Positions 1,586-30,653 of a stretch of 64,000 bases of DNA are shown in pieces. Below the pieces are notes generated by a model that saw only the letters and a program-made list of their open reading frames with translations, did not search any database and was not told where the DNA came from. A program made the translations under genes and the position numbers. Numbering within the stretch: the first letter of the stretch is position 1; each line of letters opens with the position of its first letter. This DNA comes from Saccharomonospora sp. NB11. Lineage in GTDB: Bacteria; Actinomycetota; Actinomycetes; Mycobacteriales; Pseudonocardiaceae. The stretch spans positions 1 through 64,000 of the forward strand of contig NZ_JACBJG010000001.1 in NCBI RefSeq assembly GCF_015910535.1, in the 5' to 3' direction.

Positions 1586-3145
1586 ATGGCCATGAACGGT
1601 GCCCAGTCGTTGATTCGCACTCTCGTCGACGCCGACGTCGACGTGTGCTTCACCAACCCAGGGACCTCGGAGATGCACTTCGTCGCCGCGCTCGACGACG
1701 TGCCACAGATTCGCGGGGTGCTGGGGTTGTCCGAGGGCGTGGTCACGGGTGCCGCCGACGGGTACGCCCGCGTGGCGGACAAGCCGGCGGCGACGCTGCT
1801 GCATCTCGGCCCCGGCCTCGGCAACGGGCTCGCCAACCTGCACAACGCGCGCCGGGCCCACACGCCGATCGTCAACATCATCGGCGACCACGCCACGTAT
1901 CACAAGGAACTCGACGCGCCCCTGGAGTCCGACATCGAGGCCGTGGCGGGGTCGTTGAAGGGCTGGGTACGACGCTCGGCCAGTGCCGCCGACGTCGGTG
2001 CCGACGCCGCGGCGGCGGTGGCCGCCGCCCAGGACGCCCCGGGCCGGGTGGCGACGTTGATCCTGCCCGCCGACGTGTCGTGGGGCGACGGCGGCACGCC
2101 CGCCGCTCCGGTGCCGTCCCGGTCGCCGCGTCAGGTGGACTCCGACACGGTGAAGGCGGTCGCCGAGGTGCTGCGTGGCGGCGAGCCCGTCGCACTGCTG
2201 GTGGGTGGCGCGGCCTGCCGCGAGGCGGGGCTCCGCGCGCTCAGCCGTATCGCGAAGGCGACGGGCGCCAAACCGTTCGCCGAGACCTTCCCGGCGCGCA
2301 TCGAGCGCGGCGCGGGCCTGCCCAACATCGAGCGCCTCGGTTATCTGGCGGAACAAGTGGCCTACCAGCTCGACGGCATTCGTCACGTCGTCGTGGCGGG
2401 CACCAAGGCGCCGGTGTCGTTCTTCGCATACCCGGGCAAGGCCGGAAACCTGGTGCCGGAGGGCGCTCAGGTGCACACGCTGGCCGAGCTGGGTGACGAC
2501 GTCGTCGCCGCGCTGGAGGAGTTGGCCGACGAGGTGGCGGCCGACGTCGAACCCGACCTGTCCCCCGCCCAGCGACCCGAACTCCCGACCGGTGAGTTGA
2601 CGCCGCAGAACTGGGCTCAGGTGATCGGCGCGCTGCTGCCGGAGGGCGCCATCATCTCGGACGAGGCGAACACCTCCGGTCTGCTCATCCCGATGGCCAC
2701 TGCCGGAGCGCCCCGGCACGACGTGTTGACCCTGACGGGCGGCGCGATTGGACAGGGCATGCCGGTGGCCACCGGTGCCGCCATCGCCGCCGACGACCGG
2801 CCGGTGATCAACCTGGAGTCCGACGGCAGCGCGCTCTACACCGTCCAGTCACTGTGGACACAGGCGCGCGAGAACCTCAACGTCACCACGGTGGTGCTGA
2901 ACAACCGCGCGTACGCGATTCTGCGGATGGAGCTGCAACGGGTGGGCGCGGAGTCGTCGGGGCCGAAGGCGAGCAGCCTGTTCGATCTGTCCACCCCGGA
3001 CCTCGACTTCGTGCGTATGGCCGAGGGCTTCGGGGTTCCCGCCTCGCGCGCGAGGACGGCGGAGGAGCTGGCCGAGCAGTTCCGCCGCGCAGTGTCCGAA
3101 CCCGGCCCCCACCTGATCGAAGCCATGGTCCCGCCCCTGCTCTGA
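1586..3145 (+). CDS. ilvX: Acetolactate synthase-like ThDP-dependent enzyme (IlvX type)
   Basis: A 519-residue three-domain ThDP enzyme. The N-terminal Pyr domain starts NGAQSLIRTLVDADVDVCF, carries NPGTSEMHF and the catalytic Glu in LSEGVVTGAADGYARV (about residue 50); the C-terminal PP domain carries the cofactor motif ESDGSALYT with LNNRAYAIL about 25 residues later. This pattern matches the IlvX/benzoylformate-decarboxylase-like branch often annotated as acetolactate synthase large subunit, and resembles M. tuberculosis Rv3509c from memory. No regulatory subunit lies nearby, so a catabolic 2-oxoacid decarboxylase/lyase role paired with the upstream oxidase is as likely as valine synthesis. 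The SD GGGAGGA overlaps the end of glcD and supports this start. Confidence 0.8.
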   Translation: MAMNGAQSLIRTLVDADVDVCFTNPGTSEMHFVAALDDVPQIRGVLGLSEGVVTGAADGYARVADKPAATLLHLGPGLGNGLANLHNARRAHTPIVNIIGDHATYHKELDAPLESDIEAVAGSLKGWVRRSASAADVGADAAAAVAAAQDAPGRVATLILPADVSWGDGGTPAAPVPSRSPRQVDSDTVKAVAEVLRGGEPVALLVGGAACREAGLRALSRIAKATGAKPFAETFPARIERGAGLPNIERLGYLAEQVAYQLDGIRHVVVAGTKAPVSFFAYPGKAGNLVPEGAQVHTLAELGDDVVAALEELADEVAADVEPDLSPAQRPELPTGELTPQNWAQVIGALLPEGAIISDEANTSGLLIPMATAGAPRHDVLTLTGGAIGQGMPVATGAAIAADDRPVINLESDGSALYTVQSLWTQARENLNVTTVVLNNRAYAILRMELQRVGAESSGPKASSLFDLSTPDLDFVRMAEGFGVPASRARTAEELAEQFRRAVSEPGPHLIEAMVPPLL

Positions 3146-3148
3146 CCC

Positions 3149-3166
3149 GGGCCCCTCCCGGGGCCC
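3149..3166 (+). terminator. Short GC hairpin after ilvX
   Basis: GGGCCCC (3149-3155) pairs with GGGGCCC (3160-3166) around a 4-nt loop, starting 3 nt after the ilvX stop. There is no T run, so this is a weak rho-independent candidate; the 21-bp repeat array begins a few bases later. Confidence 0.5.
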
Positions 3167-3174
3167 AGCCCATC

Positions 3175-3321
3175 GTGTCCGCAGGCTGCGCGCGCGTGTC
3201 CTCGCTTGACGACGTCGTGTCCGCAGGCTGCGCGCGCGTGTCCGCGAGCTGCGTACCTGTGTCCGTAGTTCCGGTACGGGTGTCTGCGGGCGGCGTACCT
3301 GTGTCCGCACTTCAGCGACAC
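3175..3321. repeat. 21-bp tandem array, forward half (7 units)
   Basis: Seven units start with GTGTCC or GTGTCT at 3175, 3196, 3217, 3238, 3259, 3280 and 3301, an exact 21-bp step each time. The best-conserved part is GTGTCCGCA; the following bases drift around a G/C-rich GCTGCGcgC pattern. Units 1 and 3 are identical. Because 21 is a multiple of 3, frames stay open and give artificial heptad-repeat peptides (VSAGCAR-like). The units lie between two convergent genes. No constant-length unique spacers exist, so this is not CRISPR. Function unknown. Confidence 0.9.
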
Positions 3322-3436
3322 AGAACGGTTCGGCCGGACCCATATCCCTCCGCACTGATCGTCCGGGCAGCCGGTCGTACAGAAACCGCAGGCGTGCGTA
3401 CGAGGCCTGCTGACAGGCGTCGCGGGATGCGTCCAC

Positions 3437-3562
3437 CCGCGCGCAACCTGACGACACGGGTACGAGAGGTGCGGACACACGTACGCAACCCGAGGACACG
3501 AGCGCAGGGCCTGCGGACACGAGTGCGAGAGGTGCGGACTCGCGTTCGGGAGGTCGCGACAC
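3437..3562. repeat. 21-bp tandem array, inverted half (6 units)
   Basis: The reverse complement of the same unit follows: GGACAC or close variants end units at 3457, 3478, 3499, 3520, 3541 and 3562, again in exact 21-bp steps. A further degenerate copy with a 1-nt shift can be seen around 3396-3416. The stretch 3322-3436 between the two halves holds no clear copy of either orientation. The head-to-head layout means opposite-strand pairing between halves is possible, so the whole region could fold as a very long imperfect hairpin. Confidence 0.88.
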
Positions 3563-3567
3563 GGATA

Positions 3568-3606
3568 GGGCCACCGGCACCCGCAGGCGCGGGTGGCCGG
3601 TGGCCC
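3568..3606 (-). terminator. Strong hairpin downstream of fadB
   Basis: GGGCCACCGGCACCCG (3568-3583) pairs with 3590-3606 with a single bulged C and a 6-nt loop. It lies 23 nt past the fadB stop on the minus strand and immediately beside the inverted repeat array, and could work for both convergent transcription units. Confidence 0.7.
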
Positions 3607-3628
3607 TGGCTACAGACCCTGGGGAGAC

Positions 3629-5797
3629 TTACTCGAAGATCTCGCCCTTCTCGGCCTTCTCCACCAGCGACGCCGGCGGCTCGAAGTGGCTGCCGTAGCG
3701 CTCCGCGAGTTCACGCGCCCGCGCGACGAAGCCCTTCAGCCCGCCCTCGTACTGGTTGATGTACTGGATCACACCACCGGTCCAGGCGGGGAACCCGATA
3801 CCGAAGATCGACCCGATGTTGGCGTCCTGCACCGAGTTGAGCACGCCCTCGTCGAAGCACTTGACGGTCTCCAGCGCCTCGGCGAAGAGCATCCGCTCCT
3901 GGAGGTCGGTGAACGACACCTCGCCGCTGCCGCTGTTGAACGCCTCCCGCAGCCCCGGCCACAGCCCGGCGCGCTTGCCGTTCTCGTCGTACTCGTAGAA
4001 CCCGGCGCCGGACGAGCGGCCCTTGCGGTCGAACTCGTCGAGCATCCGGTCGATGACGGCCTCGGACGGGTGCGGCGTCCACGTGCCGCCCGCCGCCTCC
4101 ACGGCCGCCTTCGTCTCGTTGCGGATCTTGCGCGGCAGCGTCAGCGTCAACTCGTCCATCAGCTGCAGCGGCGGCGCCGGGTACCCGGCCTGCGCACCGG
4201 CCTGCTCGATCGTGGCGGGCTCCACGCCCTCGCCGACCGCGGCGACGGCCTCGTTGAGGAACGTGCCGATCACGCGGCTGGTGAAGAAGCCCCGGCTGTC
4301 GTTGACGACGATCGGGGTCTTCTTGATCTGCAGCGTGTAGTCGAAGACCTTCGCCAGGGTGGCGTCGGAGGTCTTCTCCCCGCGGATGATCTCCACGAGC
4401 GGCATCTTGTCCACCGGCGAGAAGAAGTGGATGCCGATGAAGTCCTCCTGCCGCTCCACGCCCTCGGCGAGCGTGGTGATGGGCAGCGTGGAGGTGTTGG
4501 AACCGAGCACCGCGTCCGGCTCGACGATCTTCTCGATCTCGCCGAACACCTTGTGCTTCAGCTCGGTGCTCTCGAAGACGGCCTCGATGACGAAGTCGAC
4601 GCCTTCGAAGTCGGCGGCGTCACCGGTGGTCTTGATGCGGTCGAGGAGCGCCTTGGACTTCTCCTCGGTGGTCTTACCGCGCTTGAGGGCCTTCTCCTCC
4701 AGCTTGCGGGCGTAGTCCTTGCCCTTCTCGGCGTTCTCCTTGGAGACGTCCTTGAGGACGACCTCGATGCCGGCCTTGGCCGACACGTAGGCGATGCCGG
4801 CACCCATCATGCCCGCGCCGAGCACACCGACCTTGCGGGCGGTGTACTTCTCGAACCCGTCGGGGCGCGAGCCACCGGAGTTGATGTGCTGCAGGTCGAA
4901 GAAGAACGCCTTCGTCATGTTCTTGGCGACCTGGCCGGTCACCAGGCTGACGAAGTACCGCGTCTCGATCTTGAACGCGGTGTCGACGTCCACCTGGGCG
5001 CCTTCCACCGCGGCGGCCAGGATGGCACGCGGCGCGGGCATCGGGGCGCCCTTGAGCTGCTTGCGCAGCGTCGCGGGGAACGCGGGCAGGTTCGCGGCGA
5101 ACTTCGGGTTCGACGGCGAGCCACCGGGGATCTTGTAGCCCTTGACGTCCCAGGGCTGCTGCGCCTCGGGGTTGGCCTTGATCCACTCCTTGGCCTTGGG
5201 CAGCAGCTCGTCGACCGAGCCCACGAGCTCGTGCACGAGGCCGAGTTCCAGCGCCTTCGCGGGCCGGTGCCGCTGGCCCTGCACCAGTACGTTCAGCACG
5301 GCGTTCTGGATGCCGAGCAGGCGCACCGTACGCACGATGCCGCCACCGCCGGGCAGCAGGCCGAGGCTCACCTCGGGCAGACCGATCTGCACACCACGCA
5401 CGTCGGCGACGATGCGGCGGTGGCAGGCCAGCGCGATCTCCAGACCGCCACCGAGGGCCGCGCCGTTGATCGCAGCGACCACGGGCTTGCCCAGGGTCTC
5501 CAGACGACGCAGGTCCTGCTTCATCGCGTTGGTCATCTCGGTGATGCCCGCGGCGTCGTCCGGGGTGGCCTTGATCAGGTCGTTGAGGTCGCCGCCCGCG
5601 AAGAAGGTCTTCTTCGCCGAGGTCAGCACCACACCGGTGATCGAGTCCTGCTCCGCCTCCAGCCGGTCGACGGTGACGCGCAGCGACTCGCGGAAGTCGG
5701 CGTTCATCGTGTTGGCCGACTGGTTGGGGTCGTCGAGCGTGAGCACGACGATGCCGTCGGAGTCCTGCTCCCAGCGAATGGTCTTGGATTCAGTCAT
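3629..5797 (-). CDS. fadB: Trifunctional fatty-acid oxidation protein, alpha subunit
   Basis: A 722-residue fusion of enoyl-CoA hydratase and L-3-hydroxyacyl-CoA dehydrogenase for beta-oxidation. The N-terminal crotonase part shows [16 protein letters not shown] and [11 protein letters not shown] with the two catalytic Glu regions (about residues 100-150); the dehydrogenase part begins at [16 protein letters not shown] (Rossmann fold, about 330) and has the catalytic [14 protein letters not shown] segment. I place the start at [10 protein letters not shown], preceded by GAGGAACGAG, rather than at an upstream in-frame codon inside fadA. It lies 16 nt downstream of fadA in the usual fadA-fadB order. 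It resembles mycobacterial FadB (Rv0860) in architecture and length. Confidence 0.93.
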
Positions 5798-18549: not shown

Positions 18550-18654
18550 ATGGTCATGACCTGCGACCACACGTTCACGAGGTGCGGACACACGTTCGCG
18601 AGGTGCGGACACGCGGTCATAGCCTGCGGACACGCGTGCGTGGGGCGAGGACAC
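18550..18654. repeat. 21-bp tandem array, second locus (5 units)
   Basis: Units ending in GGACAC (the first one degenerate, GACCAC) finish at 18570, 18591, 18612, 18633 and 18654, exact 21-bp steps. The reverse complement gives GTGTCCGCA at the unit start, the same core as the array at 3175-3562. All units here point the same way. The array separates the oxidoreductase gene end (18671) from the dioxygenase start (18450), both on the minus strand, and stays open in the dioxygenase frame as VSAPRER heptads. Confidence 0.85.
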
Positions 18655-28874: not shown

Positions 28875-30491
<1,617 letters not shown>

Positions 30492-30497
30492 ACCACC

Positions 30498-30544
30498 AAG
30501 TTAGCACCCGTTAACCTTTCTCAGGCATGTTAGCGCCCGCTAAC
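30498..30544 (-). promoter_or_regulatory. accD1 promoter with two operator copies
   Basis: A -10-like TAACTT (30503 to 30498, minus strand) stands 6 nt before the accD1 GTG. GTTAGCGCCCGCTAAC at 30529-30544 has perfect 7-bp arms around CC, and GTTAGCACCCGTTAAC at 30500-30515 is a second, imperfect copy covering the -10. The same motif occurs at the promoter of the TetR gene (31569-31584), linking regulator and operon. Confidence 0.72.
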
Positions 30545-30574
30545 CAGCGCGTCTAGGGTGCAGAAAGCGATTCG

Positions 30575-30618
30575 AAAAAACGACGACGGCCGCCGCACAC
30601 TCGGTGCGACGGCCGTCG
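30575..30618 (-). terminator. Rho-independent terminator of the GDSL esterase gene
   Basis: A 15-bp stem (30584-30598 with 30604-30618, one G-U pair, 5-nt loop) is followed on the minus strand by CGTCG-like bases and TTTTTT (30580-30575). It lies 36 nt past the stop of the esterase gene and is among the best terminators in the window. Confidence 0.88.
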
Positions 30619-30653
30619 ATCGGCAGGGTTTCGCGACGAGCCGAGGTGGAACC

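Follow-up and report, generated by a model that had tools for sequence, protein, structure and literature searches.

Iterons and ParR-type operators are direct repeats of approximately 20-22 bp to which a cooperating protein binds on one face, and arrays of this type sit at one replication or partition locus. In eukaryotic rDNA, the terminator arrays formed by the Sal boxes of TTF-I are polar, repeated protein sites located past the 3' end of the gene; we know of no bacterial counterpart. Rho utilisation sites are C-rich and G-poor, carry YC dimers every 9-13 nt and give polar termination. REP sequences are described, in the available excerpt of PMC3733652, as palindromes of 20-40 bp with a GTAG or CGTC tag, the GTAG type being accompanied by a RAYT transposase, and as residing mostly in gaps between convergent and same-direction genes, those in convergent gaps mostly lying less than 20 bp from ORF ends. 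The STAR element of Staphylococcus aureus has, according to the accessible part of PMC3532100, a 14-bp consensus, T(G/A/T)TGTTG(G/T)GGCCC(C/A), its copies being separated by recurring sequence of at least 40 bp.

No description of arrays of the form reported here was found in searches of an open-access literature library, in agreement with the first-pass annotation, which had known of no named element of this form. The window, meaning the whole stretch of 64,000 nucleotides of Saccharomonospora sp. NB11 that was analysed (contig NZ_JACBJG010000001.1, positions 1 to 64,000), holds the focal array at 3175-3562 and a second one at 18550-18654. The features concerned are the following, in window coordinates.

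1586..3145, + strand: gene of a TPP-dependent enzyme (acetolactate-synthase-like; Pfam TPP_enzyme_N/C, gene call), upstream of the forward array
3146..3166, + strand: GC-rich hairpin directly 3' of the + gene stop (from the sequence; present in the computed fold)
3175..3321, + strand: forward array, seven units of 21 bp, sense, 29 bp past the stop (from head positions)
3322..3436, no strand: centre without recognisable units, 115 bp (from the sequence)
3437..3562, - strand: reverse array, six units of 21 bp, sense to the - gene, 66 bp past its stop (from head positions)
3569..3609, - strand: hairpin 3' of the - gene (ggccaccgg..ccggtggcc; from the sequence)
3629..5797, - strand: fadB-like enoyl-CoA hydratase / 3-hydroxyacyl-CoA dehydrogenase (Pfam ECH_1, 3HCDH_N, 3HCDH), upstream gene of the reverse array
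18550..18654, - strand: second window array, five units, sense, 16 bp past the stop of the - gene on its right (weight model on L074; TRF)

The forward heads of the focal array start at 3175, 3196, 3217, 3238, 3259, 3280 and 3301, six of the seven being exact GTGTCC and that at 3280 GTGTCT; the reverse heads end at 3457, 3478, 3499, 3520, 3541 and 3562, three of them exact GGACAC and three with one mismatch, which gives 9 of 13 exact heads on both strands and 4 of 13 with one mismatch. All 13 positions fit the exact 21-bp step that had been read at first pass, the unrepeated centre estimated there at about 115 bp measures 115 bp (3322-3436), and the gene calls, together with a reading of the sequence, place the array as claimed between convergent genes, the TPP-dependent enzyme gene and the fadB-like gene, with a hairpin behind each stop. 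When the longest chain of any hexamer was scored, allowing one mismatch and any step of 15-30, the focal chain reached seven as compared with 2-4 in 200 dinucleotide-preserving shuffles of 3146-3630, and TRF returned a period of 21 on either side of the centre. The second window array has five units by the weight model and four by a stricter detector.

The search of the whole genome for heads at 21-bp spacing, proposed at first pass as a check, yielded many further copies: the pattern GTGTCC-N15-GTGTCC, with KCR following the first head, has 86+77 occurrences in NB11 compared with 0+0 when read backwards, and GTGTCC pairs 2-32 bases apart occur 144+126 times in the 4.30-Mb genome compared with 11+13 backwards. 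A 551-bp query matched 90 places. In a sample of 44 stretches (about 318 kb) around listed pattern matches, whose counts are lower bounds for the genome, at least 58 array places were found by a head-chain detector, the focal array being one of them, and at least 84 arrays with 377 units by a position-weight model, which called zero arrays on the reversed sequence.

Exact heads in this family lie on a rigid lattice, their distances being 21 bp in 173 cases, 42 bp in 109, 63 bp in 66 and 84 bp in 35, with none at 20 or 22 bp, two at 19 bp and one at 23 bp. Conservation was measured in 109 units picked solely because both of their neighbours have exact heads; 95 of them had exact heads themselves, positions 1-6 were conserved at 94-100%, C8 at 96% and G16 at 98%, and the other positions at 39-85%. 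Adjacent units shared 61% of their spacer letters and units from different arrays 53%, the differences between neighbours amounting to 39% (1698 over 293 adjacent pairs). No Watson-Crick covariation was detected inside the unit, the strongest mutual information being between neighbouring bases. Since the spacers drift and the head, C8, G16 and the step remain constant, it is the hexamer, two bases and the spacing that are kept, and the first-pass suggestion of selection for spacing is supported by the counts. Outside the head, the unit consensus varies by species.

The arrays are extragenic and mostly sense to the gene whose stop they follow. With gene boundaries taken from our own gene caller, so that single boundaries are uncertain, the 84 arrays comprised 39 in convergent gaps, 23 tandem-sense, 17 tandem-antisense, 3 divergent and 2 at contig ends, and in no case did the midpoint fall inside a gene by more than 15 bp; for comparison, the gaps of at least 50 bp in the window are 15 tandem, 10 divergent and 6 convergent. 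Sixty-two arrays lie sense behind a stop, at a median of 14 bp from it, and 41 of these 62 start 4-20 bp past the stop codon. Facing pairs were inward in 22 cases vs 2 outward in NB11, and in 34 vs 1 across the genus with the stricter detector. The 36 unpaired arrays were distributed as 18 convergent, 10 tandem-sense, 5 tandem-antisense and 3 divergent, and 12 of the 17 antisense arrays in tandem gaps are partners of an array on the opposite strand. At L090 a + gene was missed by the caller, its open frame ending approximately 14 bp before an array counted as antisense, and with the first detector the L091 array group overlaps a called gene and the L102 group spans a small called ORF. Beside the apparent exceptions, no tRNA gene was found in 20 loci, and among the 96 scanned proteins of 106 flanking ones no gene family recurred in more than three. 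Lone heads within 60 bp past 322 gene ends, outside arrays, numbered 17 for GTGTCC and 8 for GGACAC, two control words together giving 18, which is a weak trend. A translated repeat was considered and rejected, as the distances from stop to first head cover all three frames and wobble positions are conserved.

Within the family Pseudonocardiaceae, the three-head pattern was found in 28 of 249 genomes and 12 of 46 genera, a few with 1-2 doubtful matches, and in 9 of the 12 genomes of the genus, one of them with a single match; it was absent from the other three (G006, G007 and G011). In the focal gap, units stand behind the TPP gene in five of seven relatives (G001, G003, G004, G008 and G010), with a degenerate + side in G010 and two units followed by an extra gene in G003. 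The gap of G009 measures 57 bp and contains a hairpin only, with no array; several relatives have a hairpin like that at 3569..3609 in the orthologous gap, and in G009 little else is left. In the array-free G006 the focal gap holds a different inverted repeat. The second window array was not found in the matching gap of G001, G003 or G009, and the gap at window 30491-30653 carries arrays in G003, G004, G008, G009 and G010 and none in NB11 or G001. In this comparison among relatives, which had been put forward at first pass as a check on the array, positions hence persist in part and turn over in part, and the missing second array counts against the reading preferred below.

Side observations were made in the same relatives. 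In G006 (L257, 6390-6506 and 7402-7501), the inverted repeat GCCGTGAAGG..CCTTCCCTGC fills convergent gaps, the focal one included; on the fadB side of G010 (L245), a short repeat, cccacactgcgag, adjoins the degenerate GTGTCC array; and in Amycolatopsis arida (L174, 3951) CGCGAG recurs as a head three times, in steps of 21 bp with spacers that have diverged, and may represent another head family.

Outside Saccharomonospora, 16 of 19 Haloechinothrix arrays (from G014 stretches and Haloechinothrix loci, some of which are counted twice) lay outside genes with a retrained caller; two of the three inside called ORFs look like miscalled ORF ends, and the L116 array may be truly coding. With callers trained on another genus, five places at period 21 in 200 kb of G014 fell inside genes, as did four of nine Actinophytocola arrays inside called ORFs. 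No 21-bp peak was seen in a 200-kb sample of G024, a genome that lacks GTGTCC arrays. In a class-wide sample, 6 of 394 genomes matched, arrays of the kind described occurring in NB11 only; the other matches were dismissed, on inspection rather than by formal testing, as coding repeats or minisatellites. In a scan of other taxa, with 80 of 117 stretches listed, most of those listed matches outside Pseudonocardiaceae and Bacillales that were examined were inside ORFs, and these were rejected, again as judged by reading, as coding repeats (some heptad) or minisatellites.

A second group of array-bearing genomes belongs to the Bacillota. Among the matches listed, GTGTCC-N15-GTGTCC was found 22+19 times in Gracilibacillus lacisalsi (control 0+0), 9+27 times in Sporosarcina sp. 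BP05 (control 0+0) and 186+144 times in Ornithinibacillus caprae (control 30+10), and the three-head pattern occurred in 4 of 199 genomes drawn evenly from the order, G. lacisalsi included. Thirteen of the 14 arrays in 13 G. lacisalsi stretches lie sense behind a gene and none inside one; the unit there is GTGTCCARWAAA, the rest being variable. The hosts of the arrays include some soil and salt-loving bacteria, and arrays occur in both GC-rich and AT-rich hosts with different spacers, the units having been chosen by head with at most one mismatch. Steps in Ornithinibacillus are less strict (106 at 21 bp, 5 at 20, 3 at 22, 1 at 17 and 1 at 23), and 7 or 8 of its 11 arrays are inside called ORFs, which were taken as probably spurious. 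The O. caprae stretches L345, L346, L347 and L348 carry very long GTGTCCGATGTT arrays of up to 27 units per run with a few 20- and 22-bp steps, and would be suited to slippage studies.

At one orthologous gap, different heads were found in related species. In G. lacisalsi an array with one 22-bp step starts 2 bp past purF (GATase and phosphoribosyltransferase domains) and ahead of purM (AIR synthase domains), and, at the purM orthologues of 17 genomes from the Gracilibacillus group, at least three units are present in this gap in eight: with GTGTCC heads in G274, with GTGGCC in G874, G867, G869, G871, G865 and G864, and with GTGGCG in G337, apart from a few variant heads. Within each of these arrays nearly every unit has one and the same head and the spacers are diverse; between species the heads differ. 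G872 has a single GTGTCC unit, and the remaining eight gaps have no units or degenerate traces (L401 not being cleanly parsed). Two array-less purF-purM gaps, L411 (G876) and L412 (G868), hold other sequence, with an apparent hairpin in L412.

The head families of one of these genomes, G867, were surveyed in a 513-kb sample of 27 stretches, all but the pur stretch having been picked regardless of arrays. Hexamers recurring three times with diverged spacers gave 70 matches at 14 places for period 21 and at most two at other periods of 14-40; a stricter cut left 12 places at 21, two at 42 and at most one elsewhere. The heads belong to GTGGCC, GTGTCC and the unrelated CTTCACGGGATAA (CGGGATA family), the latter at seven loci in L418, L436, L443, L444, L445 and L451, all inverted, with 2-4 and then 3-4 units. 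In this family the lattice continues through the reversal, the outer length being 1 mod 21 in six of the seven arrays and 20 in the seventh. A five-unit array at L444 15372 mixes GTGGCC and GTGTCC heads. Because G867 has GTGTCC arrays and this mixed array, the head change is not a genome-wide switch or dialect, and either a reader tolerates position 4 or more than one reader exists. A 200-kb sample of G337 showed no 21-bp peak besides its purF-purM array and therefore, together with the G024 sample, indicates that the lattice is not universal.

The inverted arrangement was examined with respect to folding and phase. The focal region folds with a z of -7.4 and its arms are able to pair, as expected from inverted copies. 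Arm similarity was 0.510 at the same locus vs 0.517 between different loci (permutation p 0.74), and chimeric arms folded as well as true partners: 445 of 720 permutations equalled or exceeded the true pairing in six of the seven CGGGATA loci, units being too few at the remaining one, as did 1451 of 5000 for 17 NB11 pairs with at least three units per arm. The 58 sense arrays of at least four units folded only a little more stably than shuffles (mean z -1.2, sd 2.2). As the arms do not covary, a selected hairpin is unlikely, and a long RNA hairpin was rejected. Inward pairs with arms at most 110 bp apart share phase (n=16, Rayleigh p 4e-4), and still do without the five closest pairs (n=11, p 0.007), this cut-off having been set post hoc; wider inward pairs are not clustered (n=6, p 0.63). 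The genus-wide value is p 7e-4 for 34 inward pairs, some orthologous loci being counted repeatedly. The focal pair itself (gap 115, phase 10) is not phase-locked.

These properties are best accounted for, though at somewhat less than an even chance, by regarding the arrays as helically phased rows of sites for a putative sequence-specific DNA-binding protein. One-face protein binding fits because the spacing is of two turns, the core is asymmetric, the rows are polar and placed after stops, and the lattice withstands reversal. The footprint or cooperative spacing of the protein would be 21 bp, two turns of B-DNA, so that bound units would share one helix face; the head (GTGTCC in NB11; GTGGCC, GTGGCG or CACGGGATA elsewhere) would be the core that it contacts, the remainder of the unit mostly holding the spacing. 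Rows would occupy the untranslated space directly past stops, mostly oriented with transcription, and two inward rows, often on one lattice, may build a symmetric complex serving both convergent genes. A bound row would act as a 3'-end or intercistronic boundary, for chromatin, supercoils or RNA-polymerase traffic, and probably not as a complete terminator. The first-pass annotation had offered protein binding on one DNA face or a long folded structure: the former is the best-supported mechanism, albeit for a putative protein, and the latter is not supported, given the unmatched arms. Weighing against a lattice on DNA, sense polarity and stop proximity are equally expected of an RNA element, exact periods arise in young arrays from nothing more than tandem duplication, and the phase locking may descend from a founder dyad instead of being selected.

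Recognition at the RNA level is possible but holds an appreciably smaller probability. Here GUGUCC every 21 nt would be bound or cut by an RNA-binding protein or an endonuclease, protecting or processing the upstream 3' end. The sense polarity of the arrays, including the excess of tandem-sense over antisense among the unpaired ones and the orientation in Gracilibacillus, speaks for it, as do the array between the purF and purM cistrons of one operon and the immediate proximity to stops (of 99 genus arrays no more than 60 bp from a stop, 23 begin 4-5 bp past it). However, a rigid 21-nt step with phase kept through inversion is unexpected for single-stranded RNA, the tandem-antisense arrays are on the wrong strand, most of them with an opposite-strand partner, and no conserved RNA structure was found, the segment 3000-3800 of the window having no Rfam match above the gathering score (best 15.4 of 35 bits). 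RNA binding accounts for the polarity and not for the lattice.

Selfish interspersed repeats, REP/BIME- or MITE-like, copied or transposed, expanded by slippage and tolerated behind genes, are an unlikely explanation, and account for dispersal and turnover but not for spacing. Dozens of scattered copies whose unit consensus is typical of the species, recent identical expansions such as the six identical units in a row at C14:353580, the patchy distribution and the turnover exemplified by the second window array, missing in three relatives, are in keeping with it, and REPs are reported in like places in the excerpt of PMC3733652. Against this, Y1_Tnp does not follow the arrays: it is present in 4 of 12 genus genomes, with one copy in NB11 and also in the array-free G006, and is absent from the array-bearing G001, G002, G004, G009 and G010, for which reason a RAYT/REP origin was rejected. 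Moreover, no target-site duplication of at least 4 bp was found at any of the seven inverted CGGGATA arrays of G867, no transposase is among the 25 commonest of 225 families matched by the 96 flanking proteins scanned, some orthologous positions persist, and polarity and spacing are constrained. Plasmids gave no BLAST match to four array queries, which is weak evidence as diverged short units are hard to detect. The phage search returned three Salmonella phage records, annotated as tandem repeats, with 66-67% identity over at most 39% of the query, and 23 stretches of viral contigs mostly had ORFs running through near-identical units, only L357 resembling a real array. The array of L357 (IMGVR_UViG_2508501036_000001, 2061-2208) comprises seven GTGTCC units whose spacers are diverged and rich in A/T, and its contig, low in GC, is classed as viral.

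A transcription terminator, in which the array would be a repeated Rho site, a protein roadblock or, if inverted, a long hairpin, is improbable. The position past stops, the enrichment in convergent gaps, the hairpins that replace the array in the focal gap of G009 and G006 and the excess of C over G on the sense strand (ratio 1.22) would suit it. Nevertheless, a full stop between purF and purM would deprive purM of transcription unless it is served by a promoter of its own; a simple or full terminator is therefore disfavoured by the arrays inside this purine operon. In addition, the distance from the array end to the next start is 9-33 bp for four G. lacisalsi arrays, too short for an intervening promoter; the focal genes already have hairpins of their own, and the 21 group consensi have a single YC per unit in common, which would suit Rho poorly. 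Finally, neutral minisatellites, that is, chance tandem duplications whose exact period is a copying register, are already disfavoured and scarcely credible: copy number is freely variable, perfect repeats occur among the arrays and some other-taxon matches are heptad coding repeats, but the head and G16 are kept while the rest drifts with almost no indels, the period is common to unrelated heads and two phyla, and the arrays are polar and persist at some gaps.

Returning to helically phased protein sites, a wider form of this reading, which we regard as conceivable though rather doubtful, is that of a general gene-end code in Actinomycetota and Bacillota, whereby unrelated heads, even in one genome, would be set on one 21-bp lattice and read by a DNA-binding family of varied specificities, whose polar or symmetric filaments would mark or insulate the ends of genes. 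If a protein reads the lattice, it would represent an undescribed class of gene-end DNA-binding system, and the purF-purM arrays, with different heads at one gap in related species, are a natural experiment by which the reader or readers could be found.

Compared with known systems, the arrays resemble iterons in being direct repeats of about two turns, and differ from them in being dispersed over dozens of gene ends; as regards the Sal boxes of TTF-I, the purine-operon array argues against full termination. No target-site duplication as at transposon or MITE ends accompanies the seven CGGGATA arrays. With STAR, as presented in the accessible part of PMC3532100, they share short GC-rich intergenic direct repeats, occurrence in few species, variable copy number and the absence of an assigned function, but they consist of a 6-bp head every 21 bp, mostly sense behind stops. 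REP/BIME sequences, as far as the excerpt of PMC3733652 describes them, are likewise dispersed, extragenic and near ORF 3' ends, sometimes in opposite-facing pairs, and the arrays indeed occupy convergent and same-direction gaps near the 3' end. Unlike REPs, however, they run head-to-tail on a strict 21-bp lattice; their units are not fitted hairpins and do not covary, no GTAG or CGTC tag is common to the 21 consensi (GTAG occurs inside the unit consensus of S. piscinae, not as a palindrome tag), and they do not follow the Y1_Tnp transposase expected with the GTAG type. Taken together, whereas known bacterial extragenic repeats are palindromes such as REP, inserted hairpins or loose direct repeats, the conserved quantity in these arrays is a two-turn spacing, shared by unrelated heads and by two phyla and maintained where the orientation reverses.
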